Assembly (NCBI GenBank): GCA_034231615.1
Contig: CM067309.1
Coordinates: 37,289,750-37,353,749 of the forward strand
Source: Meghimatium bilineatum
Lineage: Eukaryota; Mollusca; Gastropoda; Stylommatophora; Philomycidae
Length of the DNA stretch: 64,000 nucleotides
Reading direction: 5' to 3'
Positions 21,553-48,600 of this stretch are shown here, piece by piece. Below the pieces are notes generated by a model. It was given only the letters and a program-made list of their open reading frames with translations, was not told the DNA's origin and did no database searches. Each line of letters opens with the position of its first letter. Within the stretch, counting starts at the first letter, position 1. A program made the position numbers and the translations under genes.

Positions 21553-21644
21553 ATGGCCGGCCTTGGGACAACTCTACGGGGAAAACCTTTGTGGCCTTTT
21601 GTCTCTGCTGCCTTGAGAAAATGCCAGACTCCGTTAACAACACG
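21553..21644 (+). CDS. NIPSNAP: NIPSNAP exon 1, mitochondrial presequence
   Basis: The exon opens at ATG 21553 and ends before donor GTATGC at 21645, leaving two bases (CG) that complete an Arg codon with exon 2. It encodes about 30 residues rich in Arg, Lys, Ser and Thr with no acidic residue, as expected of a targeting peptide. The phase match to exon 2 supports the call. Confidence 0.85.
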
Positions 21645-24600
21645 GTATGCATTTTTTGTCGGTGTTAGACAATATGGTTAAAAGTGTTGAAAGACCATGT
21701 AAAGTTTAGATTTATGGTGTCTAATATTTGTTTACACATGTTACCTGGGGGTTATAATTTGACCAATGACCTTGACCTCACGGAGGGCCATTCAATAAAA
21801 GTGTGCAATGTTTGCATTTCTTTCTATTAGAGCTGTAATGCTTAATTAATAGAAGCATTATTGCTCAAAAATGGTGTTGTTTTATAGCCGGGCCGAAAGA
21901 TTTCCATAAAATTATGAAACATGGAATCCTTGTAGCCCAACACCGTACCACTGACACCTGGAACAAAAGGCAAGACTAACACTCCACTAAATAAATAATT
22001 TAGTGGTAGGATGAGCAGGCCCCTGACAAATAAAACTGAAAAACTGTTTCCATTTAGATTATCCACTATACCCTAACACTTATTGGTATGCCTACATATA
22101 CCTATCAACGTCCCAGCACTCTGAACATAAGCAGTGTCCTCTGTGCCTAATCCTCCTTAGTCATCTCTTGATATGCATGACAGTTAAAATATATTATTTT
22201 ACCCTTTCATGCGCAGGTAACACATGTGATAAGGCAAATGATAGAAGGGGACTCTATAAAAGTCCCAGACATGTAGGGTTTGATAACTGTTGCCAAGGCC
22301 CAAAAGGGGAACAGAGACTAGTAACAGAGATCCGTCTAGCATATTGTAAAAGATGACTAAGGAGTGAGTAGTGATGTTGGCTATCCCACTATTAGAACAT
22401 CAGTGGAGTGCTAAGGGTATTGCTCTCGGTGGACCCAGGGTTGACAGATAACCAAGATTCCAAAAGTACCTCCACCCTTTTGGTCCACCCTGGAAACAAG
22501 TACAGTAGTTTGTGCTGCTTCTGGCAAATGTTTTTGGGAGTGTGTCCGTTAATGTGGAGGCTGCAAATGGAATGAGAATTGATTGCAAAAAAACAAGAAT
22601 TATCTCAAACATCTCTGTGCCAACACATACAGCGTCACTGTCAACACACAGTGACGTAAGACAGTCCAGCTCAAGCATTGGAGCCACTGCAATTGTAACA
22701 AAATGGTAGATGTCAAGATAAATAGCGTGAGTTAAAAAGATAACATATCGAGGGCAGTACAGCACTAGGGGGAGGCGCTACAAGCTAACGGAGTGGGAGA
22801 ACTCTAAAAGGGAATCGAAACTAAAGTTTTGTTTTGCTCGAGAACAAGCATCTAGTCTCCGGTGCTCCTAAACAATGTGTAGAGACTCAAACTTGAATGA
22901 GGGGTTCATGATGTTAGTGAATAACACCTTGGCTAAGAGGGTGAACGAAACTGGGACCAACTCTACCGTTGATCCTTTCCTGTACTGGTTCAGTACCCAA
23001 TGGGCACATGCACAAGACATCTAATTACGTGAGACAGGTTTACTTGCAGCAGAACACCTCACACAAGATTGGCTAGTCGACCCAAGCCTAAATCCCAGAA
23101 TACACTACTGACTCCACGGAGACTGCCACCCAAGGACATATTTTGGCCTGAAAAGTCCAAGGACAGAGTGGGTGGAAAATGTCACAGAGTAGAGTCGATA
23201 CACATCTATCGCCTGGCGACAGATAGGAAGGCTGTCACAGAGTAGGGAAGCTCACTACTTGAATTAAAGGCATGAGGAAAATTGATGTGCTGGACCTCAG
23301 ATGGGCTGATCCATCTGAGGTGCGAATAACAGCTCTGCTGTAGAACTAACAGCACAATGTACCTTACGCTTGCTGGTGGAAATCCCACAAACTTTTGTGT
23401 TGGTTATCAGAGAGGAAGTGTAGAAGAAGAAGAACATCAATGTGAACCTAAAAATGTCTTGCTAAAATCGGATGTAGGATACTATTAAGCTAAAAGATAT
23501 TGCAGCCAAGCTGTAAAACCATGATACAGCATGTTCTCTTGACTACATTCTGCTAATCAGCAGTAGTTTGAGGTAAAATGTAGATCATTTCCACGTTTCT
23601 GCGTATAATATAACTTGTGTCAAGGGACGATGATCTAATTCATAATTAAATTCTTCTTCTTCTTCAACATTCATTCTCAAGCTCCAGCTTGATCTCTCTT
23701 GTTGTCTGACAATGACCCTACAAGATTTCAAGCAGGGTGTAGTTGAGAGAATGGAAATGCGTTGTGTCTCTGTTTTATTTGCACCCATGGCTCGATACAT
23801 CTGCCTTTGGCAGAATCAATGATTGTACTTTTTTTGTAATGATCCAGATTAGTTGAAGCATATAATGCACATGATTATATGAGATTGGTGGTGTATTCTG
23901 TTGTTGTCTGAGTGTAGGACATGTCAGATGTAGGCCCAACAGCGTTTTATATTCTATTCTTTACTTATTGTTTTATCTACCAGTTAGACTAACCTCTCTG
24001 TCACCGAGATGACACTTGACTTAATTTTTTACTTGTTTTATTTACCTACTTAATAACCTCTCTGCCACTGAGATGTTTCTTAACTTACCAGTATGTTTTT
24101 GCTTATTATTTGATCTACCTGTGTTTACCATCAGATTTCGAAATGTTCAAACAACTTCTGCCTTACAAAGAGATCGGGATGATGATGATGACTCATCTAA
24201 GGGTTGGTTCAGCAGACTCAAGAAGACACCCCAGCCAGAGCAGTCTCATTCTATGGCCCTGTCTAGTAAAGAAACAGTTTACGAAATCCAGTGTAAGTGT
24301 CTATATGTATATTTCAAAGTTTTGTATAATACTTTCCATGCCCAGGTATACAAATAAGGGCACTTTCCATGTTAACATGCGTACAACATGGACACGATCT
24401 TTTATAGTGGGGTTAATTAACCTAAAATGTAGGTCACTATTTGTTAAACTGTGACAGATTGACACCAGATACATTTTCATATTTCTGAAATGCATGTGTC
24501 AAGGAGTGCCATTCTGCCAAATCTGCGGTGTTAATTTTAAAATGAAAGTGTTTTGCATCAATCCTTAACACCACTCTAAAGGGTCACATCCATGTAGTTT

Positions 24601-27600
24601 CATGCCACACGAAACTAGAATATGTCACAGCCTGAAGCTCAAATTCCTTTACATATTGCGATTGTAAGAGCGAGGAATCCAGCGCATTTTGTCACCGAAA
24701 GTCTGGAACGAATTCTGTTGATTTTCAATGCCATATTTCATTTATGGATTATGTTCCTGCTATGATTTCTTGGAAATTACAGTTATTATCATGAAATATT
24801 ATTAAAACGTTACTTTCGGAGAATATATTAAGACATTTCATTGACTCATATGGAACAAGTATATTGTATATAATTAGGATTGTGTCAGATTTAAATATCT
24901 TCTAGGTCAGTTGTTGCACTGTGTGATATGGTACATGATCGGCAATGGTAAGTAGAATATATGTGATTTATTTGTTGTTTTAGTGTTTTATGTGATGTTA
25001 TTTTATAAGTACGTTAGTTTATTCATTGAATAACATAATAACAATATTTATCAGGAGTGCCACAGGTTGGCTTTGGAAATAATTACGTTGTCACAGGTTG
25101 GCATTGGAAATAATTATGTTGTATGTCAGGCTAGGCCTAGTCTGAACGGACCGAAATTGTATTTGGTATCTTCATGTTTTACTTGTTTATTCAGTCCATA
25201 TTATATTAGTTTGGTTAGAAACAATATATATATATACAACAGGAATAGGTATTTAAGTGGATTTTATCAGTGTTACCACACATTTCTCAAGAATATGTGT
25301 GTCAATAATTTTTGTGGGGATCTTTTACTACATTTTTTAATGTTATAGTTCCCCCAATTTTCAACTTCTCACAACTTTCATATCACACATACAACAACAA
25401 AAACCACATAATTATATGTATTATTCACTTCTTTATTTACATGTACAAAAATTATTGTGAAATCTCGAATAACAAAAAGGTTATTGTGTTTTTTTCCAAA
25501 CACGACCCAAAATAATGCAAATTGTCAAAAAAGAAGCCAGGCCCAGGGGAAAGATTGCATAATTGTAGTTCAGGATTCTAAAAGTAAACGTGGAAAAGGC
25601 AAAAATTGGGCCAGCAAGTAAGTGGAGACCACGACAATAATCCTTCTCCAAGTGGAATACATGCAGACCAGGAGTTCGAAAATGAACACAGAAGATGAAG
25701 AAGATATGGGATTAAACGTTCTCACATTTTCACATTCAAAGTGTGAACATCTGGATTGTGTACAGAATGGAGAAATGTGTATAATCCTCTGCTGTACTAG
25801 AAATGCTTCTGTTTTGAAAATGAGATGCATACTGGAACCTGTCACAATGTTGCCATCACGCTCTTGTCCCACTAAAACATATATTCATGTAACTGTAGAA
25901 CAGAAACATACAAGAAACTATTGAAGATGTGGACATGAGAATCCATCGATGCATGTCATAGATGGCATAGGTTGAAAAGACAGTAGGTGGGGTGACAACA
26001 ATTTCAATATCACTAAAATAATTGATGGGAAAATTCTAAAATGTCATAATTATTCAACTTCTCTTGTCTTACCTGTCCTAAATTCAGTTTGGATTTCTTT
26101 TGCGTACATGATACAGATTGAATCCAGGAATGTCTGTGTAATGCCTGGGCCTAAGAAGCGGGAAAAGAATAGCAACACTGTTACCTGCCATCCACATTGT
26201 AGGAGGCAATTATTGTAGTTAAGGGGTGGAGTTGGCTGTCCCATCCCATAAAGGGTCAAAATGACCAACAAACCATTTTGAAGTCAGATAATCAGGCCAA
26301 AATGTGCAGATCACAGCTTAACTGTAAGCTAAACCATGGCACGCAGCATTCTGTTCTCCAGCATAGATCCTGTTGGTTGGTTGGTTGCTGGTCCACGGGC
26401 TCATGACCTTTGGCCTAATACCATTAAATGGCATTGTATTGCTGGGAAGTCTGTGGATTTTCTGCCCACCGATTGATTGACAATCTAGCATGACCACAGA
26501 CCTGAAAGCTAAAGAAGAATACAGGATTAAATTTGAAGCTCATGCTAAACCAGATATATCATGCCAAAACGCACAGATATTACAAGTAAACTGGTGTTAT
26601 TGTTTGTCTCAGATCACTAAGACTGCAGATAGCAGAAGATTCACAGGAATTGTGAACAGTACAGCTTGTGCTTCATTTTCTACAATGGGGAAGTTTGTGC
26701 AAAGCTTTATTTTCTAACCAGAAAAACTCCAATTCTCAGAGAGGTTAAGTAGGTTTTAAGCTGTGACAACCATGACACAATACATTCCTTTCTCTGGACT
26801 ACATTCTGTTAGTCTGCAGGAGTTTGAGAATGAACACAGAAGAAGAATTGACCCTGTATAATGCTGATATTTTGTGTTTCAGTTCACGCTGTCAAACCAG
26901 AGTTCATGGAGGAGTACCTCAATCAATTGTAAGTATGTTAGACTTCGTTGCGTAAGTTTGCCATTTGTTTTTGTTTGTTTTGTCCTAGTATCTATATAAC
27001 GATAATATGTACTCACTGCTGCATAACTGAAATTCAACATGCAGAATTTAGAACAGGATAAGGAAGTTTTGCTAATCACTGGAAACACATGACACACACA
27101 AATCGACATTTTGGCCAAAAAACCTTTATCAAGAACACATTCACAACAAAATTTTTACCTCTGACCTTCTATTTTCTGTTCTTATCATTTCACCTCTGAC
27201 CTTCTAGTTGTAACTCTTCTGGGTTATATCTATTTTATCTCAGTGAGGTCAATATGTGTCTATAGTGTCGTTCTTACTCATTTTTGTTGTTGTGAATGTG
27301 TTTTGATAAATACCTTTTGGTTTTAAATGTCGATTTGTGTGTGTTATTATGTGTTTTGTTTGGCAAAACTTCATTACTCTGTTCCACATTTCGCCTATCT
27401 GTTCCAACTTCCTGCAGAGCATAAGTCCTTAACAAGCCTCTTACATCTTGTCCAATCCTCAGCTATTGCTTCTAGTTTGTTCAATGTCTTAACCATCATT
27501 TCGTTACTGTATATTAGAGCTTCTCAGAGATTCAGAAGTAAAGTGACAAATTATATCAAAAATTAGTGGCAGACAATCAAGACTTATAGGGCATGTGATG

Positions 27601-30600
27601 AGAAGAGCAAGACGTGAAATTTAGTAATCAACGGAAAGATCAAGGGGTTGGCTGTACCACCATATAGTGACCCAGAAGTCATGCTGAAGACAAATGTGTC
27701 AAGCTAAAAGATGCAGATATCGCAGCCATGCTGTAAACCATGCCACAGCTCAGTCTGTTCTCTAGGCACATCCTGCTAATCTGCAGGAGTTTCAGAATGC
27801 AAAAGTATACATTCAATGTTTTTCCAATTCTATTGTGTGTTGATGTTCATAGCTGTACAGCTAGTCAGTCTGTGCATCACAACCTGTTTACCAGCATCAC
27901 TCACACAGCGCGCAAACCTCTTCTGAATGGTGTCCCGGTTGTCATCATTACTTGACGTTTTGATGCTATTTGGGTTTCTATCAATTTGACTACAGACGCA
28001 AGACAGCAGATGAGTATTTTTAATTTTTTAGATGTTAGTAATACTAACAAAGTGAGATGTTTTCTCTGCTTCAACAGCTCCACATTTCAGCAACTGATGA
28101 AAGATAAACAAACTGGGGCTGAATTAGTGGGTAGTTTCACTGTGGAAATTGGAGATCAAGATGAGGCAGGTATGTCACCACATTAGCTACAAACTTGAAA
28201 ATCGATAAACATGTGTAGACTTTTTCATCTTCAATGATCCAGCAACAGTCAGTCTGCTAGTTCATTGTTTCTCAACTGGAAAGCTTGAAATGATGTAATT
28301 AAGTTTTGCTAATAACTAGACACACAATCACACACACAAATTTGACATTTTGACCAAAAGGCCTTTATCAATGTTACATACACATATACATCAAAACGGT
28401 GAGCAGGGATGATACAACTTGCATTCACATGTCAAGCGAGATGTAGGGGAGATTGAAGTCGAGTTGTGTGTGTAGTTATTTGCAAAACTTCATTACCCAG
28501 TTTCAAGCTTTCCTGTTGGATTTCAGTTTTACGAAGTGAGTCTGTACTAGATGCTGCAACAATCCCCTAATCTGCAGGAGATTGAAAATGAAGGCAATGA
28601 TTTATTGTGGTTCTGCAGGACAGCACCACATGCAATGGTCACTTATTGCTTCAAGGGTCTCTAGTCAAGGTAGAAAGAAGAATGGACACAAGAAATGGAT
28701 GGGGAAATGAGAAAATGTATATCTTGGAAACCCTAGGTTAGGAATAGAAATAATTTCTTGTCAGTGTGTACAAAATATAGAGTATGAATTTCATGAGAAA
28801 TAGTTGTATAAAATTCTTCATGCTTGTTTTTTGGGTACAGTACAAGTAGATGACAGACACCACATTTAATTATATCCCGTGTCTATGTTTGTCAATTTCA
28901 CTTTCATCATTTAATAATTAAAATATTTAAAAAAATTTAGGGTTGGGGTTAGGGTTAGTTATGTAAAACACAACTATCCTTACCCAAACCCTAAAATAAA
29001 TATTTAAGCTATTAAATGATGAACATGAAATTTACAAACAGACAAGTGAAATAACTCGACTATGTGGTGACGTCTACTTGTACTGTACCGTTTATTGATA
29101 TGTAAGTGTCAGCTCAGTAATGCAATGATATTTTTTCTGTTTCTGCATTCTATTACAGTTCATATTTGGCAGTATTCTGGTGGTTATCCTGTGCTAAACA
29201 ATGCTAACACCATCTACAGGACGGACTCAGTAAGTCAGTATGTCTGTACTAACTACTTGCATTACTTGTAACACTTTTATCTGCCAGCATGCTGCAGTGG
29301 CCCCTTTAGCTGGTATGGCCAAGGTAACATATTTTTGTTATCCCCTCTTTGCTAAAAATGGTTTGACTCTGAAATTGACAAGCGCCAGTACATGTCAACC
29401 ATTCCATCCAGGAGGTATATATTTTCTGTGACAATAAAAAGCTAGTACAGTGAAAGATCTCGGTTCATATTAAGCAGATGTGGCCTATTTTTTACAGAAC
29501 TTATCTCGTACATTATTTAAGGAAACAAACTTTTGCTAAAGGCGCATACAACGCAGCATCCATCGATCTGTGAGTAACTCACTGAGAGGCCCCCTCTTCC
29601 CTAGAATACCCTTTAGGGGGAGGTGGGGAAAGCTCTCAGTGCGTTATGAGAAGATCGAATCAGCTCTTGCAGACGCTTTGCATTTTTTATCTCCGCATCA
29701 CGGAAGCTCAATGAAATAAAACCTACTATTTTAAAAAAATGGATTATCATGTGATGAGGCCGCATTTGCCTAACATGTACTAAATCTCTTATTGTTGATG
29801 AATTAGAATAGGATTCAGCACAGGAGGAAATCATTGGGCAAAGAATTTAACAACTAAAGTTAACGACCAGGCCAGGTAAGGGTAACCGAGGGGCTTTGGC
29901 ATGAGGTAAAACAAGGCATATCTATTCAATCATGTGAAGCCTGGATATGGCAGAGAGCAGGAATGAAAAATCTGATGTTCAGTAGGGTTGAAGATATTTA
30001 CCAGATGATTGCTGTATGGAACGCGAAGGGCTTAGTGAGACTTCTTCTTCTTCTGCGTTCGTTCTCAAACTCCTGCAGATTAGCAGGATGTAGTCCAGAG
30101 AACGGAATGCGTTGTGTCATGGTTTACAGCATTGCTGCGATATATGCGCCTTTCGGCCTGACACATCCGACTTCAGCATGTCTTAGTGAGACAAGTAGAA
30201 CACTCTGACCATCTCCATCCACTGCATCATGGTACACCACCAGTCCTCATTATTTATTTTGCCACTGTAATATGTTTGGACCAGGAAGAGAAAGTGGTTG
30301 ACGAACAGCGCAACTCTTTCCAGCTTTAAAAAAATTAAGAGAGCATACATTAAAATTGTACACCATATGGTAAGTGAATATTGTAAAAAAAAAATTCTGA
30401 AAAGGGTTATATATCAGTTTTATATTGAAACATATTTTTCCACATAAAACTACAATTTAACTCTTTTTATATATTTAAAAAAATGTGTTTTTCTAAGTAT
30501 GAGCATCTGGTATATGTTCAGTGTGGAGGAATGTGTATAATCCTCTGCTGAGCTATAAATGCTTCCATTGTGAAAATGAGAGGCATGCTGGGACCTGTCA

Positions 30601-33600
30601 CTATGTTCCCATCACGCTCTTGTCCAAACTAAAATATACATTCATGTAACTGTAGAGCAGAAACATACAATAAACTTATTGAAGATGTGGACATGAGAAT
30701 CCATCAATGTATGTCATAGATGTCATAGGTTGATAAGACAATAGATGGGGAGTCAACAATTTCAATATCACTAAAATAATTGATGGGAAAATTCTAAAAT
30801 GTAATAATTACTCAACTTCTCTTATCTTACTGTCCTAAATCAAGTTTGGATTTCTAATACCAGATTTAATCCAGGATTCCACAGAAGACAGATGTGTTGG
30901 GCCATTGGCGCAAATAAGATGACAACACAATGCATTTCTATTCTCTGGACTACATCCTGCTGGAAATCTAATATGACCATGGTCCTACTATAAGAGAGAA
31001 CCAGCAGGAGTTCGAGAATGAACGCTGAAGAAGAATCCAGGATCACCCGTGTGTTGCCGGAGGCCTGAGAGGGAAGGAAAGAATAGCAACACTGTTACCT
31101 ATCATGAAAATCGTTGGAGGCGACTAATGAGGTAGTGGGGTGGAGTTTGGCTGTCCAATTCCATAGAGTCAAAGTGACCCAGAAGGCATGCTGAAGTTGT
31201 ATGTGTCAGGCCAAAAGACGCAGATATGACAGAGCTAATCTGTGGTGATGATGATGAAGTAATCCCTTTAACTGAAAAGGTAGCTCTTGATAGCTCATAG
31301 TCTTTCTGACAAAAGCACAGGTTCTTCTCAGTTGTGTTACTGAGGCGACTCCCTGACTCACATAAGGTTGTCTCAAAGGCATGGTTGTGTAAGGGATATT
31401 TATGCATGCATATTCAGTTCTCAAAGGAAGACTTTCCAGTGTGACGGTATCCCAGAATCAGAATTTTCCATGCCAGATGTGCAATTACAGCAGATGGATC
31501 AATAAAGCGGACAGAAGAATGATGGACTAGTTAGAATGATGAACTACACTCCTGGCAGAATGTGAGGATTCTGGGATACGACCACGTCGGAATTCCTCCC
31601 TTTCCGGACTAAACATGCATCCATAAGTCACCTAACCCAATCATACCTTTAATACAAAAAACCTTATACGAGTTTGGTTATCCAACTGACGTGTACCTGC
31701 CCTTTTGTCAGAATGTCTATGGGCTACCTGCTGACAGCTAAAAAGGGATTCATCATTGTCATCATCATCTCTACACTTAGAAAATGCTGTTTAATGTAGA
31801 AATGGTATTTGCACTAATCAAGTACACTTTACGCTTAGTTAAATCTGATTGTTTTATGTCAGGATTTCTTAGATTTTCGCAAGAAGAGAAACATGATGCT
31901 GAGATCACGAAGGAACCAGATTCTGCTAGCTTTCAGCTTTTGGCCGCCCATCCAGCCACGACCTCCGACAAATATATATGAGCTCAGGAGTTACACACTT
32001 AAAGTTTGTCAACTTTTAATAATCTACATTCTCTTCATATGAATTCAATAACTTAAAGTTTGTCAACTTTTAATAATCTACATTCTCTTCATATGAATTC
32101 AATAACTTAAAGTTTGTCAACTTTTAATAATCTACATTCTCTTCATATGAATTCAATAACTTAAAGTTTGCATATTACTGAGTGCATAAATTCTCAACAT
32201 ATGACTTCAGCTGATTAAAATTAGTAGGTTGTTAAATATCTGAATTCTCTTCATGTTGATTTAACAACTGGAGGTTAGTTTGATGTTTAATTTCTACTTT
32301 CTCTTTTTATGAGTTTATCAACTTCAGGTTAGTTTATTTATTATCTACAATTCTCAAATAAATGTAGAATTTTATAGTTTGTTTGATATTTATTATCTAC
32401 TATTCTCAAATAAATATTATTTTATAGTTTGTAAATTATCTGCAATTCTCCTCAAATAAATATAAAATTTTATAGTTTGTTTGATATTTATTATCTACAA
32501 TTCTAGAATTACTGCCTAGATTGTTACAATGCATTGTAAACTAGATTGTTATTAACACATTGAATAAAACTGTCATATGGGACTTACAAAAACTATGCAA
32601 GTCCTCTCCATATAAAAAAGAATGCCAAGAAAGGCACCAATCTGGAGTTGAGAGTAAAACTCGCCTGGCTTAGGGGACAAGAGCAGCAAATTTGTATTCC
32701 CTATATGGATTATAATACACATCTAATTTTTTTTTCCTGTTTGTTCTCAAACTCTCACTGGATATCTCCTATAGCTGGACAATGGTCTACTAGATTTTCA
32801 GCAGGATGTAGTCTAGAGAGTGGAAATGTGTTGTGCTGCCGTTTTATTTCTGCCAATGGCCAGACAGATCTGGCTTCAACATTAGTTGTTTTTAAAATAT
32901 GAAATTGGTATATTTTTTTTGCATGCATACCTTTACGTAAAAGGTAACGGTAAAGTCTCATGACAGCAACCTGCCATAACTCTTCATGTACTAAGTCACA
33001 GCATCTATTAGGTGGGGGTGGCCACCTTGCTGTCTCTACCTCCGCTAACTCATGCGTCAGGTACTCATTTACAGCTGAGTTGTGTCAAGCGAGAAATCAC
33101 GACCAGGATGTTTTGTTTTGTTTGGACGTAGTTTCGAATCTGGCGTGCTGTAACCTGGAGATAACAAGCAAGCTCACTATCAACTAGTCTACCACTAGCC
33201 TTTATGTGCATGCATGTAATAAATGCTGACAGTGTCAGAGAATTTCTTCTTCTGTGTTGTGTTCTCAAACTCCTACAGATTAATAGGAGGTAGTCCAGAG
33301 AATAAAATCACCTGTGTCATGGTTTACAGCTTAGCTTCGATATCTACACCTTTCGGCCTCATACATCCGACTTCAGCTTGACTTCTGGGTCACTTCGATC
33401 CTATATGGGATGGGATATTCATCTGCACCCCGTAACTTCCTTAGTCGTCTCTTACAATATACATGGAAGGTAAAACTGTTGCTATTCTTGTCTTCCCTTT
33501 TGGACCCAGTAACCCATGGACAAATCAGATCACTATAGCTGATAAAAATCATACTTCATTTTCCTCCCACGTGTTACCGGAGCCCGAACGAGGAGCACAG

Positions 33601-36600
33601 AATAGCAATACTGTTTATCTTCCATATATGCAGTAAGAGGCAACTAAGGAGGTTATGGGATGGAGTTGGCTACCCATATAGAGTCAAAGTGACCCAAAGT
33701 AAGGCTGAAGTCAGATGTGCCAGACTAAAAAGAGCAGATGTTGCATCAACGCTGTAAACCGCGACATAACACATTCCGTTCTCCAGACTACATCCTGCTA
33801 ATCTGCAGGAGTTTAAGAAGAAGAATACTTCTTTTTCTAGTGATGTTTGTTCCATATATTCAAAGAATAATGACAATGATATATTTGATATTGTTTTTCA
33901 GCCAGGGACAATGTACGAGTGGGGAAATTGCTGGTAAGTTACCTAGCGTGTTACATCTTGGCAGTTTCTCTTTGTGATGATGGTAGAGCTGTTGGTAAAG
34001 TTCTGGGTTAGTTTAATCCAAATTTTAACCTTGTATAAATATTATTTTTTTTAAGGGTTTGCTGCATTCATTTAATACATAAATATACATAAATACATAA
34101 ATATTGTTATTGAAAGAAGCATATGTTTATCTTTCATTTTGTTACTATTAGACTGTAAGGCCTCAGTCTAAACAAGTAGAAAACAGAAGTAATGGTTGTT
34201 TCAAAGAAACACACACCACCAAGATGTGGTATTAATATCCATGATGCAAAATTTAATCTGTGCATAAAGTCAAGTATTGTTGCACCATTTTAACAGCAGA
34301 TGGCAGATGCTCTAGTGAGGTAAAGAGCAGGATAGTACAGCCACATCAGCATTTCAAAATATGATAAACATTTTAGGCAATGGATTAGTAAAATTGCATA
34401 TGTGAGTTCGAGTGCTAGAATGTTATATTTTATGGATCCTTCTTTATGGATGTAAAGCATGGATGGTAGGACTAACACTACCCTAATCTGAAGAGAGTTA
34501 AACCCATACGGGGCAACTATGGTGGGTTGGATGGTAGGACTGACACCACCCTAATCTGGAGAGAGTTAAACCCATTTTCTGGACAAGGAAGAAGAAAATG
34601 AGTCATAAAGTGATATTTATATGTGCATTCACAAGGCTGTTTGGTTGTTATTTTTTCAAGTTATCAATTCAACTTTTAACTCTTGTATAAGAATATTCCT
34701 GGGACAAACCTATTTTATTATTCTTAGTTACTATTAAACTAAGAACGTCTGGGTTCCTGGTTTCTAAAAGGGGAGCAAAGAATAGCAACACTATTTACCT
34801 TCCATGCATGTCGTAAGAGGTGAGTAAGGAGGTTATGGGAGTTGGCTGTCCCATCCCAAATAGGGTCAAAGTGACTCAGATACCATACTGAAGTCGAATG
34901 TGTCGTGTCAAAAGATGCAGAAACTGCAGCAAAGTTGTGAACCATAGCACAGTGCACTCCGGACTACATTCTGTTGACTTATAAACAAACTGGTAAGTTC
35001 TCAAGGACTAATTTTTGTGGGTAGTAGAATGACAAACTTGTAAGTTCTCAAGGACTAATTTTTGTGGGTAGTAGAATGACAAACTTGTAAGTTCTCAAGG
35101 ACTAATTTTTGTGGGTAGTAGAATGACAAACTTGTAAGTTCTCAAGGACTAATTTTTGTGGGTAGTAGAATGACAAACTTGTTTGGATTAGATAAATAAG
35201 ACGATGTTCACTTTCTAAAACAATTTTACAAGAAAGAGTCGAGTGTGCAAGGAGAAGATGTAGGAACAAGAAAATGGATTAACAACATTAAGGATTGATC
35301 CTGACATGATTTAAGATCTGAAACTTTGAAGTGTTTGAAGAGCATTTTGTGCGGATGTTTCCAGTATGGCACCCCTCAACCCTGACGAGTTATGGGTCTT
35401 ATTATTAACGAGAAGAAGAAGATTATAATCTTCAAGTGGGTGTTGTAGGCTCGTGGTAGTGATGTGTATATGAAGGGGAGAAATGTCTAGAGAGTGTCCA
35501 TGTTATGATTTATGGTTGAAACGTACTTAAAATAGATAAATGGGTGAGAAGCAACACTACTTCTTCTGCGTTCATTCTCAAACTCCCACTGGATTCTCTT
35601 GTAGCAGAACAATGGTCCTACTAGATTTCCAGCAGGATTTAGTCCAGAGAATGGAAATATGTTGTGTCGACATTTTAATTGTGCCAAAGGCCCGGCACAT
35701 CTGTCTTCGGCAGAAACCAACACTACACACAAAGCTCAATGGACCTTATATTGGCTACATAAGACAGTGAAGTTGATTGAAGATATGGGTGGTTGATTGG
35801 TTGCTGATCCAGTGGTTCATGAACTCATGCCCTTTGACCCAAAGTCATTGTGTGATATATGCATGTATTTGTGAGCTATTGTTTTGTTCCATATGAGGTA
35901 TTCCAAATAATGTGTTCCATTTATCTGGCCCTGGAGGGAGAAAGGGAGAAGCATTTTCCTGACATCATCCAGCACTGGGCATTCAAAAAGTTGGTGGTTG
36001 ACAGTTTTGTAGGGATGGGTGTACAGCCAGTGGGCACTAAATTACAGATATAGGTGCATTTGCCAGTGTGTTGCCCGCCCGCCTTAGAGAGAGGTAAAAA
36101 ATATCGACACTGTTTACAATCCATATGTGTCATAAGAGGAGACTAAGAAGTTTATGACATGAAGTTGGCTGTTCCATCTCATAGAGGGTCAAAGTTACCC
36201 AGAAGCCATGCTGACATCGGATGTGTCAGGCCGAAATCACAGATATTGCAGCCAAGCTGTAAACTATGATACAATGAATACCATTCTCTGGACTACATCT
36301 TGCTAATCTGCAGGAGTTTGAGAACAAACACATAAATAGAAGATATATTTTAAGTGAACGAAAGAATGTAAATAGGCTAGTACGAACCTCATCTACAAAG
36401 TGCAGACTGGAAACATTAACCCAGAGATTTAAACCCAGAGGCTAAAGGAGCTTTGACTTTTTATGTGGATTACGTGTGGTTAAATTCTTCTAGAAGCTGG
36501 AACTAGCTGGTCTAGCTAGCTGCCAGTGGAGTAATATTGTTAGTAGTAGTGGAGGAGTATTCAGGTATAGCAGGATGAAACAGACACAGATGCTGAGAAC

Positions 36601-39600
36601 ATTGGACTTGTGTGATAACAGACTCAACTATCACAACTTCTATTTGCTGCATACATCAGAACCATATCAATAAAAATTATTAAAAACATGACAGAAAAAG
36701 ACAAACATAATGGCAAAAATTTGGAAAATGACAACATGAGGACAACAATTCAAAGAAAATGTTAGTTTGGATGTGCAAAGAGGCAAAACAGTATGGTAAA
36801 TTATACATCATAAAAGTTGAGGGCAAATGGACAAGAAAGGATATTGTGAGATGTAAATACCAGATGTACAGTAATTATCTGCCAGACACCACATTGACAA
36901 TTAAGATAATTGAATGTATTTATTAGTGCAGATTTGTTGAAGAAATGCTACTTATTGTGAGATTTCAGAGTTCTTTCTAATCCATCTTGTGATGTTCATT
37001 TGTCAACAATACTGATATTTTCACTCATGTTCATATAGTATGTGGGTACAGTTTTTTGCAAAACAGTGGTTCTTAACTTTTTTTTGGACTGTGGGAAAAA
37101 TTTTCTTTTGCGGTCCATCTGGTGGGGAAAAAAAAGTTTATAAAGTAATAAAAGAAATTAAATATAATGTGCTTTATTTATAAACCACCAAGGCTTTTTA
37201 AGAATTTGATCCAGCTTTATCACCATAATTCTTGTTTAACATTCAAGTGGCTGCCTTCTTGTGGCCCTCCCTGGGAGGGGCTGTGGCCACCCAATTCAAA
37301 ATATTTCTCCATGGCCTCCCTTCATCTCCGTAGTGGGGAGGGGGAGATCTATATAGCACAAGTTGAGAACCACTGCTGTTGTAAGTCATGGTTGACATTA
37401 ACCTCCCTCTCCTGACCTACTCATCCCCTCCCCCATCAATGCAGGGCCAAAGGAATAAAGTTCCGTCAAACAAACAATGAACCCGTAGCAGGTTTTTTTA
37501 CACAGATAGGCAATTTGTACTGTGTTGAGCACATCTGGGGTAAGTCTCGACCAGCCTCTTGGAATCAAGCTGACCAACTGATGCAGCTGTGTTGATGCAT
37601 TGTGTTTTTTGTGCTGAGTTGTATTTATTTCATTTTGTTGTTAGCTTGATCATTTATGCATGCGTTTGAAAAATATATTTCTTCTGACTGTCATATCTAG
37701 TGGAAAACTTTGGGGTATATATAATTTATCAGACTGTAACTTTATGTGATAAATAATTTATCAGACATGCATTTTATGATAATTATGGGATATTTTATGG
37801 GATATTTATGACATTTCAGAGGAAATAATTCATTACTAAAAACATTACAGTTAGATGTTTGCACAGTGGTTTAGACAACAAATGGTAGCTAACTGTTCAT
37901 GTTTCCTTTTGCTGATAGTGAATTATATCTTTACGGTCTAGTATAGCTTTTCCACACTAATTGCGTTGTAGTTTCTGCCTTAAATATGTAACATAATTTT
38001 CTGACTGCTGGCTGTTAGTGCCTCTTGGATGTATCAGGTTGTGTGCAATCTTGTGATTGTATTCCAAGCTCGGTGTCCCTGTCTCATTATCTGTAGAGAT
38101 CGTGTCAATATTGATTGCGTTCAAACAATTTTTGAGGAGTGGTGCATGCTTATTCCTAGTCTAACTTTGACCAACCCATGGGTTATAAATCACTGAATTG
38201 TTCACTGTGTGTGGCAGGGCACGAATGGGGACCAACGAAAAGCAACACTATTATGTGCTATGAATGTCATACGAGGGAACTAAGGGGGTTTGAGTTGGCT
38301 GTCCCTTCTCATAGATGGTTGAAGTGACCCAGGAGCTGTCAGTAAATGACATCAGTACCAGTCATTGTGGCTAGTATGGGATAAATGACGTCAGTACCAG
38401 TCATTGTGGCTAGTATGGGATAAATGACGTCAGTACCAGTCATTGTGGCTAGTATGGGATAAATGACGTCAGTACCAGTCATTGTGGCTAGTATGGAATA
38501 AATGACATCAGTACCAGTCACTGTGGCTAGTATGGGATAAATGACACCAGTACCAGTCACTGTGGCTAGGATGGGATGATGTCTTTGCCAAGATGAATTT
38601 GAGATGTATTGTTTTTTACACTATTTAAGTTAGCAGCAGTGCAAAATAAATGTCTGAAAAAAAAGTTTTTTAAATACCCAGATACTTTATAAGTTCAGAA
38701 TAAGCAAATTCTCAGGTCATTTCTGTGATGGAAAAGAAAGAAAACATGGCAAACAGTTGTGCTTCTATTTTTGTTGTTGTCACAACCACATGAATTGTGT
38801 GCACGTTTGTTATACAGTGGAATCCTGTTATAACAGCTTGGCCCGGACCAACAAAATATGTATGTAATAACAAAAATTTGCTATTTGCAAGACAAACAAT
38901 ATAGAATATATTTAATTAGGGATTTTGAAAAATGTTGTTATATCGAAAAATTTGTTATAGAAGGGTGCACTATAGAGGGATTCCACTGTATTATGTTGTA
39001 AAATATTGTCATATATTGATTTAGTTCTAACTTTCTTTATATTGTTAGACTTGAATATGGCTTTCCAACTTACAGAAGTGCGACTTAGTTACGCTTTCAC
39101 TGCTTCTAAGTAATACTAGAATTATAAAATGACATCACTGCACTTAAGGAACTTAAGCTCCTGCTTTTATAAATTAATTGAAAGTGTTTTATAGTCCAGC
39201 TGTAAATCTTGACACTACACATTCGGTTCTCTGGACTACATCCTGCTGATGATCAGGAATTTGAGAACGCAGAAGAATTGGGTATGTGCCAGTAGTGATT
39301 ATTATATCTTAGATACAAGCTAAATTCTTCCTGAGCACGTCTTGGTAACAGCTATGACAAAGCAGCCTTTATTTCCACAGCCATAAAGCCTCCCTGCACT
39401 CCTTAACAGGAAAACATGCACTAATGAAAGTTTTTTAAAATTAGACAAGCGTTGAAACTATGCAGGGTTGAAACGGACGGCTGCCCCAGTTGGAGGCACC
39501 AAAAGCAATAGCCAGGGTTGCCACAACTGAAATGAAGTCAGATTATTTAAAGGATTGACAAAGGAATTAGAGATTGCCCAGGGCACCAAAATTTACAATA

Positions 39601-42600
39601 TCAACGCTGCTTTAGACAGATTAAATTTCTAAATACACAAGCTAAAATGATAACCTTTATCTTACCCCCCCCCCCCCCCTCCCAAATCTAGTTTCTGGTG
39701 CAGTTTTGTCATCAGTGCTAAACTATATCTCTCATTATGCACCATTAACCTGTTTCCTGTATGCTCAATCTGTGATTACAACGGTGCTTGTGTTCTAGCG
39801 TCTAGTGCATTAACTCGGATTGTGTGTGTGTGCACGGAGATGGTAGTTATCAATGCTGCATGCTTTCTGTAGATATGGGTACTATATTCCTCCTCTACAT
39901 GAGGCTGCTGTGATTGAGGGGTGTTCTTCATAAGTTGGCACGGATTATTTAAAGGAGATGGCGCTCAAAATTATGGATGACATAGAACTTTACTAATGGA
40001 ACAGTATTTTTTATTCCCAAAGACATTCTTTGTTTCTATATGAGACGGTTTTTTTGTCCTCTATGCTTTCTTCTTTTTCGCATGTAACAATTGTCTTGTG
40101 AGATTGCTTCTTTCCCTATGTTTTGTCTTGTGAGATTGCTTCTTTCCCTATGTTTTGTCTTGTGAGATTGCTTCTTTCCCTATGTTTTGTCTTGTGAGAT
40201 TGCTTCTTTCCCTATGTTTTGTCTTGTGAGATTGCTTCTTTCCCTATGTTTTGTCTTGTGAGATTGCTTCTTTCCCTATGTTTTGTCTTGTGAGATTGCT
40301 TCTTTCCCTATGTTTTGTCTTGTGAGATTGCTTCTTTCCCTATGTTTTGTCTTGTGAGATTGCTTCTTTCCCTATGTTTTGTCTTGTGAGATTGCTTCTT
40401 TCCCTATGTTTTGTCTTGTGAGATTGCTTCTTTCCCTGTTTTGTCTTGTGAGATTGCTTCTTTCCCTATGTTTTGTCTTGTGAGATTGCTTCTTTCCCTA
40501 TGTTTTGTCTTGTGAGATTGCTTCTTTCCCTATGTTTTGTCTTGTGAGATTGCTTCTTTCCCTATGTAACAATTGTCTTGTCTTGTGAGATTGCTTCTTT
40601 TTTCCATATGTAACGATCGTCTTATGAGATTGCTTCGTTTTCCCTATAGAGCATTTGTTCTGTTTTTCTAATGGATCATTTCTTGTTCCCTATAAAATAT
40701 TGCAGCTTGTTCTTGGTTAGAAAAACTCTTGTTCCCATGGAATATAATGGAATATAAGGGGCAGCAGCAGTTCTACTTGAATGATTTCCGCCCGTGTGTT
40801 TCCGGGCCCGAAAGGGGAGCAAAGAATAGCAACACTTTACCTTCCATGCATGTTGTAAAAGGCAACTAAGGAGGTTATGGGATGGAGTTGGCTGTCCTAT
40901 CCCATATAGGGTCAGTGACCCAAAGCCATGCTGAAGTCGGATGTATCAGATCTGAAAGGCGCAGATATCGCAGCAATGCTGTAAACCATGACACAGCGCA
41001 TTCCGTTCTCCGGACTACATCCTGCTTATCTGCAGGAGTTTGAGAACAAACTTTCCCATACTTCTACTTTTGTTCCCTTAGAACGTGCTTATATCTGAAG
41101 TTTTGACTCTTCTATAAGCCTGACTGTTTTGTAACATGTTGTAGAGTTTTTCTCCCACTGTTGTTTCACTGCACAGTGTATTTTCTTTAGCATTTCATAT
41201 TTTGGACATTCTTTAAGAATATTCTCTTCTGTCCACCTGTCCACATATACTCATGACTGTGTTGTCAATGTTGGACTTTGTGTACATGTGGCTGTCGAGT
41301 CAGTTGTATCCTGTTCTGAATGACAACTTGTTCGGGATGTTTTATAATTTGGTAGTAATCTTGTGTTGGAGTTGACTTTCTAATTTCTGTGATCATTTGT
41401 TTCTTTTGATTATAAGTTATTGGTACATCTGGTTGATCATCAGCAGCTCCCTCTTTAGTCAGGCGATCTGCTTTGTTTCCAGGTATTCCACAATGCAATA
41501 GTATCCACTGCGTATATTTGATTACAGTTTTTCTTTTATTTTTTTGAAGTTCCGACAGATTATTTAGTATTTAATAATGCACATTAATTGTGCAAACAGT
41601 GACCCCCCCCCCCTTTTTTTGATATACCACAGGCATGACATAACAATATCCTTGTTTCCAAGACTTCCCTGGTGACATTTTGGGTAGTTTTAATATTTGA
41701 GAGATTGCATTGTATATGGTGTAAAAATTGGCACTTGTTTTTTTTTTCCTTCAGTCATGAACAAGCAGTGCACTTGCAACTATATTTGAAGCTGTCCAGA
41801 TTTTTGAAAACTTGAAGTTAAAAATCTGTCTTTGTCTTATAGAGAATTTTGACAATCTGAGTTACTTATCTTGTTGCACCATATCTCAAATTATTTTCTC
41901 TGCAAGGGCTAAGGGACTTCAGTATAGGATATCGCAGAATGAACCTGTGGCTGGATTGTTCTCACAAATAGGTGAACAGTATAATGTACATCACTTGTGG
42001 GGTAGGTACCGGTGTACATACTTATGTACACGTTTAGGTTATAGCTAAGTTTTCATGAACGCTTACACAAAATCGTACACTGCCTCATACATCTATGTGT
42101 GTTCATGAAAGGATAAACTAGAAAGTGGATTGACTTTATTGTCTTCAGGTTTTCTCCATGTATATTCCGCCTCTCAATAGAGCAGTATACTGTGTTGCGA
42201 ATGTACCACTTAGAGGATATAACTAGCTAAGAGTGATGATTTCTAGGAGTCTCTGAAATATAGCTTGGAAACAAGATGTTACTGTTTGGTGTCAATCCCA
42301 TGAATACAAGGCAAATTTCTTAATCACTCAGCATGAAGATCTAAGTAGAGGAAGGAAGAAATGTATCCAAATGCAAATGCACTGATATGCCCAGATGCAA
42401 ATGCACTGATGTGCCTAGATGCAAATGCACCGATGTGCCTAGATGCAAATTCACTGATGTGCCTAGATGCAAATGCACCAATTTTCCCAGATGCAAAAAT
42501 GTCATAAGACTGCATTCACAACTACTCCACCTACATGCCCATAAGAACTCGGTCAGAGATACTTGCATACATACAAGGGCTCATTACAAATATTTTTCCT

Positions 42601-45600
42601 ACATGAACACTTGTAGGGCTCAATGAAATATTATTTCATTTTAGTATACACACCAAATACTCGGTTCAAATTTACTAACATACACTTAAAGAGGGATCAT
42701 TCAATTATACTTCGACTAGCTCTCTTCCGCACTGCTGAGGACAGCAGAAAATTGGGTATTGACGCATCCACGGCTGCACCTCTAACGGGATATATTACTG
42801 CTGCTACTTTTAATATTTATCTCTTCATCTGTTAGCCATTGCGCCATTTGATTTCCGACTAGGGTGCTCAGGTAAGATAAAAAAATTCATTGATGTCTGC
42901 ACATAAAATTACAGCAGACATCAGAGCTTATACTGTTGTACTGTACAATATACCCAGGATCTAACATTGTCTTTCTTCGTGGCTAAATGTTGTATGATTA
43001 GCCATGTATTCTGCATGTTTGTTGTTTTCAGTGTAGCAGCACGTACAGTAATATGATTTAGCAGTGTATTCTGCATGTTTGATGTTCATAGTGTGTTAGG
43101 TATAACAATAAAAACAGTTGTATGAGGTGAAGCATGTTTGATATTCATAGTGTGTTGGGTATAACAATAAAATCAGTTGTATGAGGGGAAGCACATGCAG
43201 TAGAGGGTATTGCTTTTCAACTACCGGATATTGTTGAATGTTGTAAGCATCATTTATACATTCAGTTGTATTGCCAGTATATTGTGGATGGTTCATTTTG
43301 TGTGTGATTCGAACTGCGAGCAAGTTTATTGAGTTATGCTATAAATAAAATTAAACTATGTAAACTATGATAAAATTAATTCTGTTCTTTGGACAACATC
43401 CTGCCATCAAGCAGGAGTTTGAGAATGAATGCCGAAGTAGTGTAAATAGAAGTAGACTTCTGTGAGTGAGTGAATCTTTTGAGTATTCACACAAGTGCAA
43501 CTCAGCAATTATTTTCTGGTTTCATGGTTCACCTTTCAGCATAAGGTTCTCTTTTGTGTTTTTTATCAAAACTCCTTGAGATCATCTTGATGTAATCTGG
43601 AGAATGGAGTGTCATTGTTTAACAGCTGCAATATCTGCTCCTTTCGGCCTGATATCCAACTTCAGTGTGGCTTCTGTGTCACTTTGACCAAATATGGGAT
43701 AGGATGGGACAGTCAACTCCACTCCAAATCCTCATTAGATGCCTCATACAATATACTTGGCAGGTGTTGCTCTTCTTTGCTCCCTTTTTGGGCCCTGGCG
43801 AACATAGATGTATGTTAGGTATAGAAGAGATTATGGTGAAAGCCATGCTATGTGCCTTAAATATGGTGTCTGATATTTCATCTGTCCACCTTTCTGAGCG
43901 CTACTCTAGACTAACTACCGGTAGTTTATGCTGTTGTTATATATGTCACTGTAGAGGGTTAGTGAATTTCTTGATTATGAACTAGCATCTAAATAAATAT
44001 CCTTATTGGTCGTCGACACAAAGTGACCAATGAAAATCATGGGATTATTCAAATGTCACTTTAGAGGCATGATTCCTGATGAGTCCACAGGGTTGTAAGT
44101 GATGAGAGAAATGGCTCAGTTCACCCAGTCCGTCAGAAATCTAAAAATTATATATGCTCTGTCCCAGTCTGTTGGATATGGGTTTTGGATATGTTCAGAG
44201 AAAAGGCACTTTCTCCTCTCTGTTCTGGTCACTCATTTCCTTCATACTCTGTACATTGTCTCTTTCAGTCAGTCAAATAGTCATAATTTGCAAGAACTTA
44301 GTCATGGTTCGATGCTCAATGTAGACTGTGCATGTAAATAATGATGCTTAAAAGTTCAATTGTTGAAAAGCCATCTCCAGTACAGGCTATGCTTCAATTA
44401 TTTATTTGTATGTTAGTATTTTTTAACAAATATCACAGTCAAACCACACTAGCAGGTAATCTGAAAACATATATTACCATAGCCTCATATAACTGACTAA
44501 TATACTAATATTATGTATCCTTGTGATATGAATTTGCCTGTAACTTATTAACCATATGTACCGGTAGTTTAGTACTTCTATACTTCTAATAACACATGGG
44601 AACTAATAACCTTATGTATATATAATATGTTACTATATATATATATATATAATGTTAATGAAAATTTGATGATGAAAACAGTTATTCTATAAATTGTGTT
44701 TAATAAATATATATTGAGCATATTTTTAATTATATTCTCATAAGGGTTTTCCTATATTGCGTAATGTATTTAGATTTTTTTTAAATTGTGGTTTTAGGGG
44801 CTTATGGCAGAAAGTGTCTGCCTGAATGGCTGTTTTAGCCGCTTGTCTGAGATAAGGAGTTAATACATATGGGACATTTGCAAATGTGCATGAGTTTATA
44901 TATGCCAGATTTTTTTTGTAAAATAATTGGTTTAACAACAAATTTTATCTAAATTAACTTTATTTATGTATATTGTTTTAAATCTGGCAGTAGTTAGATT
45001 AATGATGTATAAACTGTCTACATTAATGTAGTTATTTTGGTTACTTTAATCAATTTTTAATTTATCAAAAAAAGAATAAGCCAAATTGGCAAAGAATGCA
45101 GGTAGATTGTGGAAAAAGGAACATGGCTCGGAGTTCTGATATGAATTCTTCTATGTATATTGTAAGAAGTGACTACGGAGGTTATGGAGTGGAGTTGACT
45201 GTCCCATCCCATATATGGTCAAAGTGACAAGCCATGCTATGGATGAATTTGTAGACACAACAGCACAGCTGGGCTGTAAACCATGACACAACGCATTACA
45301 TTCTCCAGACTATATCCTGCTAATCTGTAGGAGTTTGAAATGAATGCAGAAGAAGAAGAGAACATGTTGGTATGTAATCTACTCTCTGGATGACCTCAGT
45401 TTCCCAGAATAAAAGAGACAGCTGATGCGGTCATGTAATCTCTCTGAATGACCTCAATATTCCAGGGTAGAAGAAAGACCATGGCAATCTACTGGGCATA
45501 TTTATATTGCCTAGAAAATCAATACAGCCAAAAAATGCTTGAATAGGATATGCTACCAATAAAAGAAGAAAGACAACGGATAAAGTCATAATCTTCTCTC

Positions 45601-48600
45601 TTAATAACCTCAATATCACAGGGTAGAAGAAAGACAACGGATAAAGTCATAATCTTCTCTCTTAATAACCTCAATATCACAGGGTAGAAGAAAGACAACT
45701 GATAGGATCATTCCAGCCACCTACTAGTACTTCCTGTTTAGGGTTGTTACTCTACACTGAAACATTTATCTCCCCTACACTGGAACATTTATCCCTTGAT
45801 AGGATCACCATTCATCCTATCTGGATGTCTTTACACTCCATAATAGAAAAGAGACATTCATTGACATTCTCTTTGTATACACAGCAGATAGAAAATAACT
45901 GATAGGTTTAGATGACATTTTCTGTGGACACTCCAGGGTACAAGCGAAGTGACTAGGCAAGTATATTGTTGAAGGTTTGTAATGTATCACTGCAATATTT
46001 TGTTCTGAGATTGTATCATAATTGTATTACTTTTCTGTTATGATTCAAGACTAGTTAATTTTAGAAATGATTCAGGTTTCTGCTATCTGAAGATTTTCAT
46101 GTATTCAAACATTGACTTGTTACTCTATTATTAGGGTATAAGGATCTGCAGACAAGGAAGGAGACGAGAGAAGCTGCATGGAGTCGCCCAGGGTGGGATG
46201 AGTGCGTTTCTTATACAGGTACTCAATTAATTTTATGTGGGTATTACATCCAGTTATTGCGTGTCGTCTCAGCATGTTTGAGCGGAAATACTGATCAAAT
46301 ACTGTTGTAATTATCCACGCCTTCTGTTTTCATTCTCAAACTCTGACAGGCAGCAAATTTAGTCTTGAGATCAGAATGTCATGTATTAGTCTGCAGGTCA
46401 TCATCATGGCATCCTGAAAAAAATTCATATGTGCTCCGATCTCATATTCAGAAGGTGGTAACTTAGGTGCTCCGATCTCATATTCAGAATGTGGTAACAT
46501 AGGTGCTCCGATCTCATGTTGAGAATGTACATTCAGAAGTAGAATGTATATTCTCTGCTTTCTCTGTGGCGGTCAGTAGGTATGGGAATAAAGAGAGAGC
46601 TCACAACCACAGTGGTTGAACGATAAATAGTTCACAATATGCAGGATAACAAATATATTTTTGGATTCTGGGTATTTGCACAAGATCATCGTAGATCTGT
46701 ACAGTGCCATTTATCAACTCTACATGTTTGTCTTTCCCACAGCTTAGTTTTGCAATACTAGGTTCTGAGCTTGCTGCAACACATGAGAATTGTACATTTC
46801 GGTCACTTAATGGTGGTTATTAAATTCCTAATTGTTGGCATACAAATTGCAAACTCAATCTTGCTAGTTTTCAGGATGCAGGTACGTGTGGTGTTGGTTA
46901 GTGATCGCGTCCTGTTGTTCATCAGTCACAAGTGATTATAATTTACATTTAATGAATATTTGTGGCCGTCTGTGGCTATGTTGATAGCGATGCAAGACAG
47001 CAACAGAAAAGGTCAAGCATACGTGACCGTGGTTAGCTTTAAGCTTCGTGACCAGCGTGTTCGTATGACAATTAGTTCCCTCGTACAGCTGGCCTACTAT
47101 ATTCACAATATGGTTACAAACATCCACTGTTCAGTATAAGTAGTAAAAACACTGTTCAAGTTAGTTTCCAATTCCGAAGTTGGATGTGTCAGGCCATTGC
47201 AGCAAATACAACGTTGACACGGAGCATTTCCATTTTCCGAGCTATATCCTGCTGAAAATATAGTAAGGCCATTGTCCTGCTACAAGAGAGATCCAGTGGG
47301 AGTTTGAGAACAAACAAAAACTTGGTTTGTTACATCTCCTTTTTGAAATTCAGTTATGAAGCTATGTCTTTGGTAATGAGTTTGTTGATGGTTAATACGC
47401 CCTATGGCACCCACAAAGGTTCTTAGACAGTTTGGCCATGAAGTGATCACTTTAGATGGTGTTTGATCTGTTGTGTCCTTCTAGCCAGTCTGATGTTGAG
47501 CTACAACATTTCTCCTCTTTTCACAAGGTGGTGAGCCTTTTTTTGATTGTAGGGAAGCATATATCTCTATTATACGACAATCAATGAAAGTTAATACTGC
47601 TGTGAAACGGAATAACAATAGTACTTATGTAGAACACAGGTTTTTGAAGTTTCACTTGAGCACAACTGACAGACTATCACTAAGGGGCTATGGGGTGTAA
47701 GCACGAAAATATACAAATGACAATACACAAGACAATATCAATGTTTCGAACCGTTAGGTCTTAGTTAATGAATATATTAAACAGTGAAAAACAAGAAAAA
47801 CCTTGATTGTCACCTTGAATTTCGTATTGTTGACATGTCAGTACTGTGGTGGTAACATTGTTTTTACCGTATTTATTGTTTTTCAGTTTGTTTTTTATAT
47901 TCATTAACTAAGACCTAACGGTTCGAAACATTGAAAATGTCTTGTGTATTGTCATTTGTATTTTTTCATGTTTACACCCCATAGCCCCTTAGTGATAAGT
48001 CTGTCAGTTGTGTTCAAGTGAAACTTCAAAAACTTGTGTTCTATGTAAAAAATTATGTTCTATGTTCATAGCTCTGTTATGTGCAGTAACTTCCCATGTA
48101 TCATGGTCTATGGCAGAGGCTCCCACATGAAGAGGATCTGTAGGAGGTCGTATCAGTGTTCTCCCAGCAAACCACATTGTACAGTAAACTTTTAGTAGAT
48201 AATACAACTAGTAGATAATACAACTAGTAGATAATACAACTATAGTCCGTTCAGATTCGTTTGCCGAGATGTTAAACAATTTTTATCAAAAACGTATTGT
48301 TCATTTGGATTGATCATTTGAAGTTAGGTTTAGAATAATAATGTCGCTATAGAAATATTTTTTTATCAAAGAAATGTGATCCAGTATCAAAGATACCTTA
48401 TTTAACCTATATTAAAAAAAAGTTAATCTAAATTATAAACAACCGCTGGATTATGTAGATGCTTACATCTCACAGCTGATTATTAAATATAAAGGCATGA
48501 CCCTCACGGTAGAATGTGCACCGTTCTAAAAGTAGTTGTTTCCACTGTACATTTGTATAAAGCAATGTTACATATGGAAATTCCCGTTTAGCACCAAATA

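Follow-up and report, generated by a model that had tools for sequence, protein, structure and literature searches.

Two tandem, probably mutually exclusive versions of exon 8 in a NIPSNAP gene of the gastropod Meghimatium bilineatum

Tandemly duplicated exons that are used in a mutually exclusive way are well known. In Dscam and in muscle myosin heavy chain genes they are neighbouring internal exons of equal length and phase which are homologous to each other and between which the reading frame forces a choice. An old tandem exon pair of this kind in Ca-alpha1T is reported to be conserved across protostomes and to be present in molluscs (PMC9741552). Here we describe a pair that shares the features named for Dscam and the myosin genes and resides in a gene for a NIPSNAP protein, for which it is apparently undescribed. 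The gene lies in a stretch of 64,000 nt from Meghimatium bilineatum (assembly GCA_034231615.1, contig CM067309.1, positions 37,289,750 to 37,353,749 of the forward strand), called the window in the following; all coordinates below refer to it.

The NIPSNAP gene is complete in the window (21553-58723, plus strand) and has 291 codons plus stop with either of two versions of its exon 8. Exon 8a (37445..37539) and exon 8b (41907..42001), both on the plus strand, are neighbouring internal exons of 95 nt each, situated between a common upstream partner, exon 7 (33902..33933, +), and a common downstream partner, exon 9 (46135..46218, +). They have the same phases, AG/GT borders and open frames. Exon 7 has the donor GTAAGT and ends in the codon part TG, to which either version adds a codon end G and 31 residues. 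The positions, lengths, phases, splice sites and open frames of the two exons, as well as their identity at 19 out of 32 residues, had been read from the letters of the DNA in the original prediction and were reproduced here. Very probably, the mutually exclusive use of 8a and 8b yields two NIPSNAP proteins from this one gene. Splicing would connect exon 7 with one version of the tandemly duplicated exon and this version with exon 9, and the products would be two proteins of 291 residues, differing at 13 of 32 residues within the first half of the NIPSNAP domain.

The arithmetic of the reading frame supports this model. When both versions are skipped, the junction reads Trp-Val-stop, with the first stop at codon 213; when both are included, a stop follows at codon 264, after 21 codons in a shifted frame. 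Both outcomes had been claimed before as forcing a choice, and our recomputation gave the same result. By arithmetic, these stops sit 77 or 114 nt upstream of the last exon junction. Since nonsense-mediated decay clears messages with a stop upstream of that junction, transcripts with neither or with both exons should be removed. Together with the comparative data given below, this part of the earlier reading of two mutually exclusive exons stands; as to the RNA itself, we infer that both exons are used in M. bilineatum, that exclusivity would hold at this level and that the choice may be regulated by tissue or stage.

The likeness between 8a and 8b is more than chance. Among 83 open stretches of the form AG|95 nt|GT in the window (46 on the plus strand, 8a and 8b included, and 37 on the minus strand), 8b scores 105 (BLOSUM62) against 8a and the next best stretch only 2. 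In a tblastn search of the window with the 8a segment, 8b (E 2e-11) was the only match below E 0.07. At the nucleotide level 59 of 95 positions are shared, and the differences are distributed over codon positions 1, 2 and 3 as 12, 4 and 20 (31 codons). They thus fall mostly at third positions, a distribution typical of coding exons whose protein is under selection. For dS between the two versions no value was obtained and it is taken as saturated. Length, phase, splice sites and homology, the published criteria for a mutually exclusive pair (PMC3228551), all apply to 8a and 8b. According to that paper, 0.56% of the non-exclusive exons of the Drosophila X chromosome (90/16,180) share these features. 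A third copy of exon 8 was seen neither in the window by tblastn nor in a first-look search of the host genome.

The exon pair was also looked for in relatives, as had been suggested, and the outcome, the strongest evidence at hand, favours mutually exclusive use. Protein searches (the best 120 of 502 matches and then, with 14 b-type proteins, the best 120 of 676, of which 14 were new) gave 134 proteins; a search restricted to the 8b part returned three proteins, too few for a census. In Candidula (P0001) the corresponding segment equals 8a (32/32), and segments of the 8b type are present in Bradybaena (P0002; 28/32 identical to 8b), Biomphalaria (26/33) and Bulinus (26/33). The clearest comparative case is the scallop Argopecten irradians, for which isoforms X1 and X2 are annotated on one contig: all 261 aligned residues outside the exon are identical, compared to 17 of 30 inside. 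Rows from sister species resemble alternative isoforms, too (Mytilus, 262/269 outside and 17/32 inside; Patella, 246/255 and 19/32). Altogether, 21 pairs among 118 rows show more than 85% identity outside and less than 75% inside the segment. Three of these (P0012/P0052, P0004/P0052 and P0054/P0056) have the b marker, a Gln discussed below, on neither side and hence are not a/b pairs. One of the three, P0054 and P0056 (199/218 identical outside, 20/32 inside), perhaps represents a further alternative at exon 8 in some other group of animals. Furthermore, the region is encoded without interruption on database contigs of 951-2256 nt, as the a type (P0012, P0014, P0052) or the b type (P0013, P0029, P0034, P0065). 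Introns as long as those of the window gene would not fit into contigs of this length, which therefore are probably spliced RNA.

Four gene models contain both segments (Elysia crispata, Batillaria attramentaria, Nucella lapillus and Tegillarca granosa), with a before b in all four. Several points weigh against the model proposed here, and these are among them, as they could mean that both exons are used together. Because three of the four have odd, unrelated linkers between the segments and the first (a) copy of Tegillarca is truncated, we read them as probable gene-model errors over two exons that cannot be joined in frame; so read, they support mutually exclusive use alongside the scallop. 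The scallop isoforms X1 and X2, for their part, are automatic annotations. The b type was found in none of the named rows from cephalopods (2), a chiton (1) and heterodont bivalves (4), in a database whose clustering at 90% hides isoforms. Finally, the introns around 8a and 8b measure 3.5-4.4 kb and all sites are GT/AG; these lengths and ordinary sites speak against crowding and against a spliceosome mismatch, so that neither a steric nor a spliceosome-type reason for exclusivity is at hand.

How old is the pair? For this question 59 exon-8 segments were chosen by hand, 57 from the 134 proteins and two from the window. They represent named molluscs, some named outgroups and a few others; left out were near-duplicates such as Ylistrum and Saccostrea, most arthropod rows and P0121. 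At one marker column, 19 b rows have Gln, 31 a rows Leu, Val or His, and nine outgroup rows Leu or Met. This separation is complete by construction, as the b label is defined by the marker Gln; separate support comes from the order of the copies and from a comparison of sets. The order a then b gives the same label in five out of five readable genes, that of the window included. For the set comparison, eight sets were available, two of them composites of sister species and the other six from single species that have both copies, the one in the window among them; they yield 28 comparisons that are not independent of each other. In 28 of 28 pairs of sets from gastropods and bivalves the BLOSUM similarity is higher between copies of the same type than across types. 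When the marker column is removed, like-with-like still wins in 23 cases, with one tie and four losses, and it stays ahead in 12 of the 15 gastropod-bivalve pairs; counted by identities, it wins 25 times, ties once and loses twice. From this we conclude that the exon duplication is older than the heterobranch snails compared, and it probably predates the split of gastropods and bivalves, which is Cambrian or earlier.

The rival to this dating, within a mutually exclusive use of the exons, is that gastropods and bivalves duplicated the exon independently and that the shared Gln is convergent. This is rather unlikely, in view of the like-with-like results and the constant order of the copies, but the losses and ties just mentioned point in its direction and so count against an old origin, as do several further observations. 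In some comparisons, for instance between the window and Argopecten without the marker column, the copies within a species score higher (221 in this case) than like copies between species (208). A tree of the 59 segments, calculated from 32 columns and poorly resolved, needs three changes of the b label, and only 40% of 200 bootstrap trees need a single one. Holding b together as one clade costs 7.49 log units; nevertheless, the AU test does not reject such a clade (p 0.275). P0121, a distant protein, shares the Gln of the marker column. Dating by tree was given up, as 32 columns are insufficient for an old duplication.

Within the same 59 segments, which include 8a and 8b, Gly at column 23 is present in 59 of 59 and His at column 30 and Trp at column 32 in 58 of 58 filled rows; both window copies keep all three. 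The differences between 8a and 8b at columns 25, 27, 29 and 31 alternate with the conserved V28, H30 and W32, and column 24 differs as well. Judged from the sequence and from the NIPSNAP fold as we take it to be, the exon-8 segment should span the end of a helix followed by two strands. From this alternation, one face of a strand would probably be altered by the switch and the opposite one kept. Such a face may lie at the surface, at a dimer interface or in a pocket, and the surface-type character given to the differing positions in the original prediction is an assumption. We infer that the pair would tune the domain rather than abolish its function. Column 29 is His in 18 of 19 b rows and in nine out of nine outgroup rows, and Glu in nine a-type rows, of which the named ones are presumably all heterobranch snails and three are others. 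This Glu beside an invariant His looks like a later change in one copy after the duplication. Taking age and chemistry together, we can tentatively propose a domain switch older than the gastropod-bivalve split: the a form would have kept the ancestral Leu and the b form acquired a Gln, now fixed, where the last strand begins, the change from His to Glu would have followed later in heterobranchs and in the a form only, and mollusc tissues would have two chemically different NIPSNAPs per gene. This full scenario is possible, though we hold it with less than even confidence.

Against two functional proteins it may be argued that one exon, most likely 8b, is rarely used or a dying duplicate, so that in practice there is one protein. 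Exon 8b has the acceptor CAAG and the donor GTAGGT, compared to GCAG with a C/T-rich tract and GTAAGT for 8a, and in a simple scoring of donors with a generic matrix it reaches 2.9 versus 5.6. However, three other donors of the same gene score lower still (exon 5, 1.8; exon 6, -1.4; exon 9, 0.5). Moreover, 8b is open and has kept its phase, and its close counterpart in Bradybaena belongs to an annotated protein that uses the b form, likewise in Biomphalaria and Bulinus. Together with the prevalence of third-position differences, this makes a dying 8b improbable. Because its splice sites look better, 8a may perhaps be the default exon, which is a guess. Even less probable appears a device that mainly sets the dose, in which joining or skipping both exons is programmed and leads to decay of the message, and the difference between the proteins is secondary. 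The early stop in both wrong products, upstream of the last exon junction, would suit it. However, across most of the sets from gastropods and bivalves, like copies are closer to each other than unlike copies; that they stay alike points to selection on two proteins, which a pure dose device would not need.

With the two-protein model thus preferred, it remains to place both exons in a single gene. In the host assembly (1.61 Gb, 32 contigs) 8a and 8b were each found once, both in the NIPSNAP gene, which argues for a duplication of the exon rather than of the gene. Exons 2-7, 9 and 10 were likewise found once each, in order and on the same contig. This was a loose first look with the 8b region and with the protein of the 8a form from exon 2 to 10 as queries, which a divergent copy could escape; a processed NIPSNAP copy was not seen in it. 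That 8b is part of a second gene copy, through an artefact of assembly or a gene duplication, can practically be dismissed, since the other exons are single in this search and the other NIPSNAP-domain gene that was found is divergent and on another contig. This second gene (contig C11, L014 4069-6012, minus strand) was found only with the family model and matches with 20/63 and 17/61 residues. It contains the stretch PSKIYELRVY...HLWEYGEF unsplit; in the window gene the same stretch is divided into exons 6-9.

To our knowledge, no biochemical role has been settled for the NIPSNAP domain. The mammalian NIPSNAP1 and NIPSNAP2 are, according to one paper, mitochondrial proteins which become exposed on damage and recruit autophagy receptors (PMC12842286). 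The idea that two isoforms with different surfaces bind different partners in mitophagy, brought forward in the original prediction, found no support. According to another report, p62 binds a sequence common to NIPSNAP1 and NIPSNAP2 that excludes the NIPSNAP domain (PMC10824736); therefore, binding of p62 should not depend on exon 8. In a further study on the quagga mussel, a protein spot named NIPSNAP1 is listed at a mass of 14,360, roughly half the size expected, and was changed by cadmium (PMC11036304).

What could enforce the choice? Competing base-pairing elements had been proposed as a target within the introns of the interval 33934-46134, and 35 inverted pairs, 25 of them listed, were detected in these introns of the host gene. 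At least four of the listed pairs (I5, I10, I15, I24) overlap a dispersed repeat with the motif GGAGTTTGAGAAYRAACRCA, which occurs with up to 2 mismatches at 17 sites of the window, in both orientations (for instance 189, 26819, 30054, 35567, 43414 and 59138; the mean over 100 shuffles was 0.00). About 45 bases separate the end of one copy from the acceptor of exon 3. Several other pairs, such as I1-I4, I6 and I8, are assumed to be further parts of repeats. A competing docking or selector element in the introns is therefore not claimed, as a repeat so common cannot single out this pair. Two inverted pairs are positioned such that they could loop out one version or the other and serve as a lead only: the arms of I9 (35630-35656 and 39222-39248, 27 nt, 89%) flank 8a and those of I6 (40804-40835 and 43764-43795, 32 nt, 91%) flank 8b.

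The remainder of the gene, all on the plus strand, was modelled as follows. The coding part of exon 1 with the start codon and the N-terminus (21553..21644) was located by tblastn with the N-terminus of Candidula (E 1.8e-4); its donor was seen and it joins exon 2 in frame. Exons 2 (24135..24292), 3 (26883..26928), 4 (28078..28169), 5 (29159..29229) and 6 (31863..32003) are placed by the gene model with in-frame joins, and exon 10 (58659..58723) is the last coding exon and holds the stop. Both forms belong to the NIPSNAP family (Pfam PF07978), with 146.5 bits for the 8a form and 143.6 bits for the 8b form against a curated cut-off of 22.3. In the protein database search, the window protein matched its counterparts in two land snails, Candidula unifasciata at 90% and Bradybaena similaris at 87% identity, by which the host would belong to the Stylommatophora or to heterobranchs close to them.

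A partial gene for a mitochondrial carrier (PF00153, E 1.6e-15) lies upstream of NIPSNAP at 2461-2811 (+). The intron between exons 9 and 10 harbours two transposase frames of 427 aa with identical translation, about 4 kb apart, at 48735-50018 (+) and 54128-55411 (-), of which the former matches Pfam DDE_3 (E 4.4e-15). These opposed frames constitute a large inverted transposon pair. Between them lies a 51-bp minisatellite of approximately 28 copies (51216-52745), open as a repeat frame of 509 aa whose Pfam matches look like repeat noise. A frame of 163 aa at 19402-19893 (-) has a DUF4371 match of 22.8 bits, under the cut-off of 32.1, and is perhaps a transposon remnant.

The expectation that a switch of this kind had not been described for NIPSNAP agrees with what we found, as our searches of listed open-licence papers yielded no description of mutually exclusive NIPSNAP exons; the scallop isoforms exist as automatic database annotation. 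The main text of neither PMC9741552 nor PMC5740500 contains the name NIPSNAP, and in the accessible part of PMC11036304 splicing is discussed for other proteins. The pair in snails and bivalves represents a natural experiment in which 13 of 32 positions vary and the rest of the protein is identical. A comparison of the two isoforms within one animal might reveal the residues that determine binding or activity, and the tissues concerned. If the model is true, the switched residues would point to the binding site of the domain, and a mitochondrial protein would be added to the old tandem exon switches.

Compared with Dscam and the muscle myosin heavy chain genes, the difference lies in the kind of gene, here a mitochondrial NIPSNAP, and in the evidence, which here comes from DNA and annotation. 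With Ca-alpha1T the NIPSNAP pair has in common that an old tandem exon pair would have been retained in molluscs; the genes are unrelated, and the NIPSNAP pair was recognised here in molluscs only. The protein itself is like animal NIPSNAP1 and NIPSNAP2 (PF07978) in its domain and overall length. In mammals these two are, according to PMC10824736, separate genes on different chromosomes. Unlike mammals with their two NIPSNAP genes, the snail has one gene with an exon pair, so that, if our model holds, splicing would partly achieve here what vertebrates achieve with NIPSNAP1 and NIPSNAP2.

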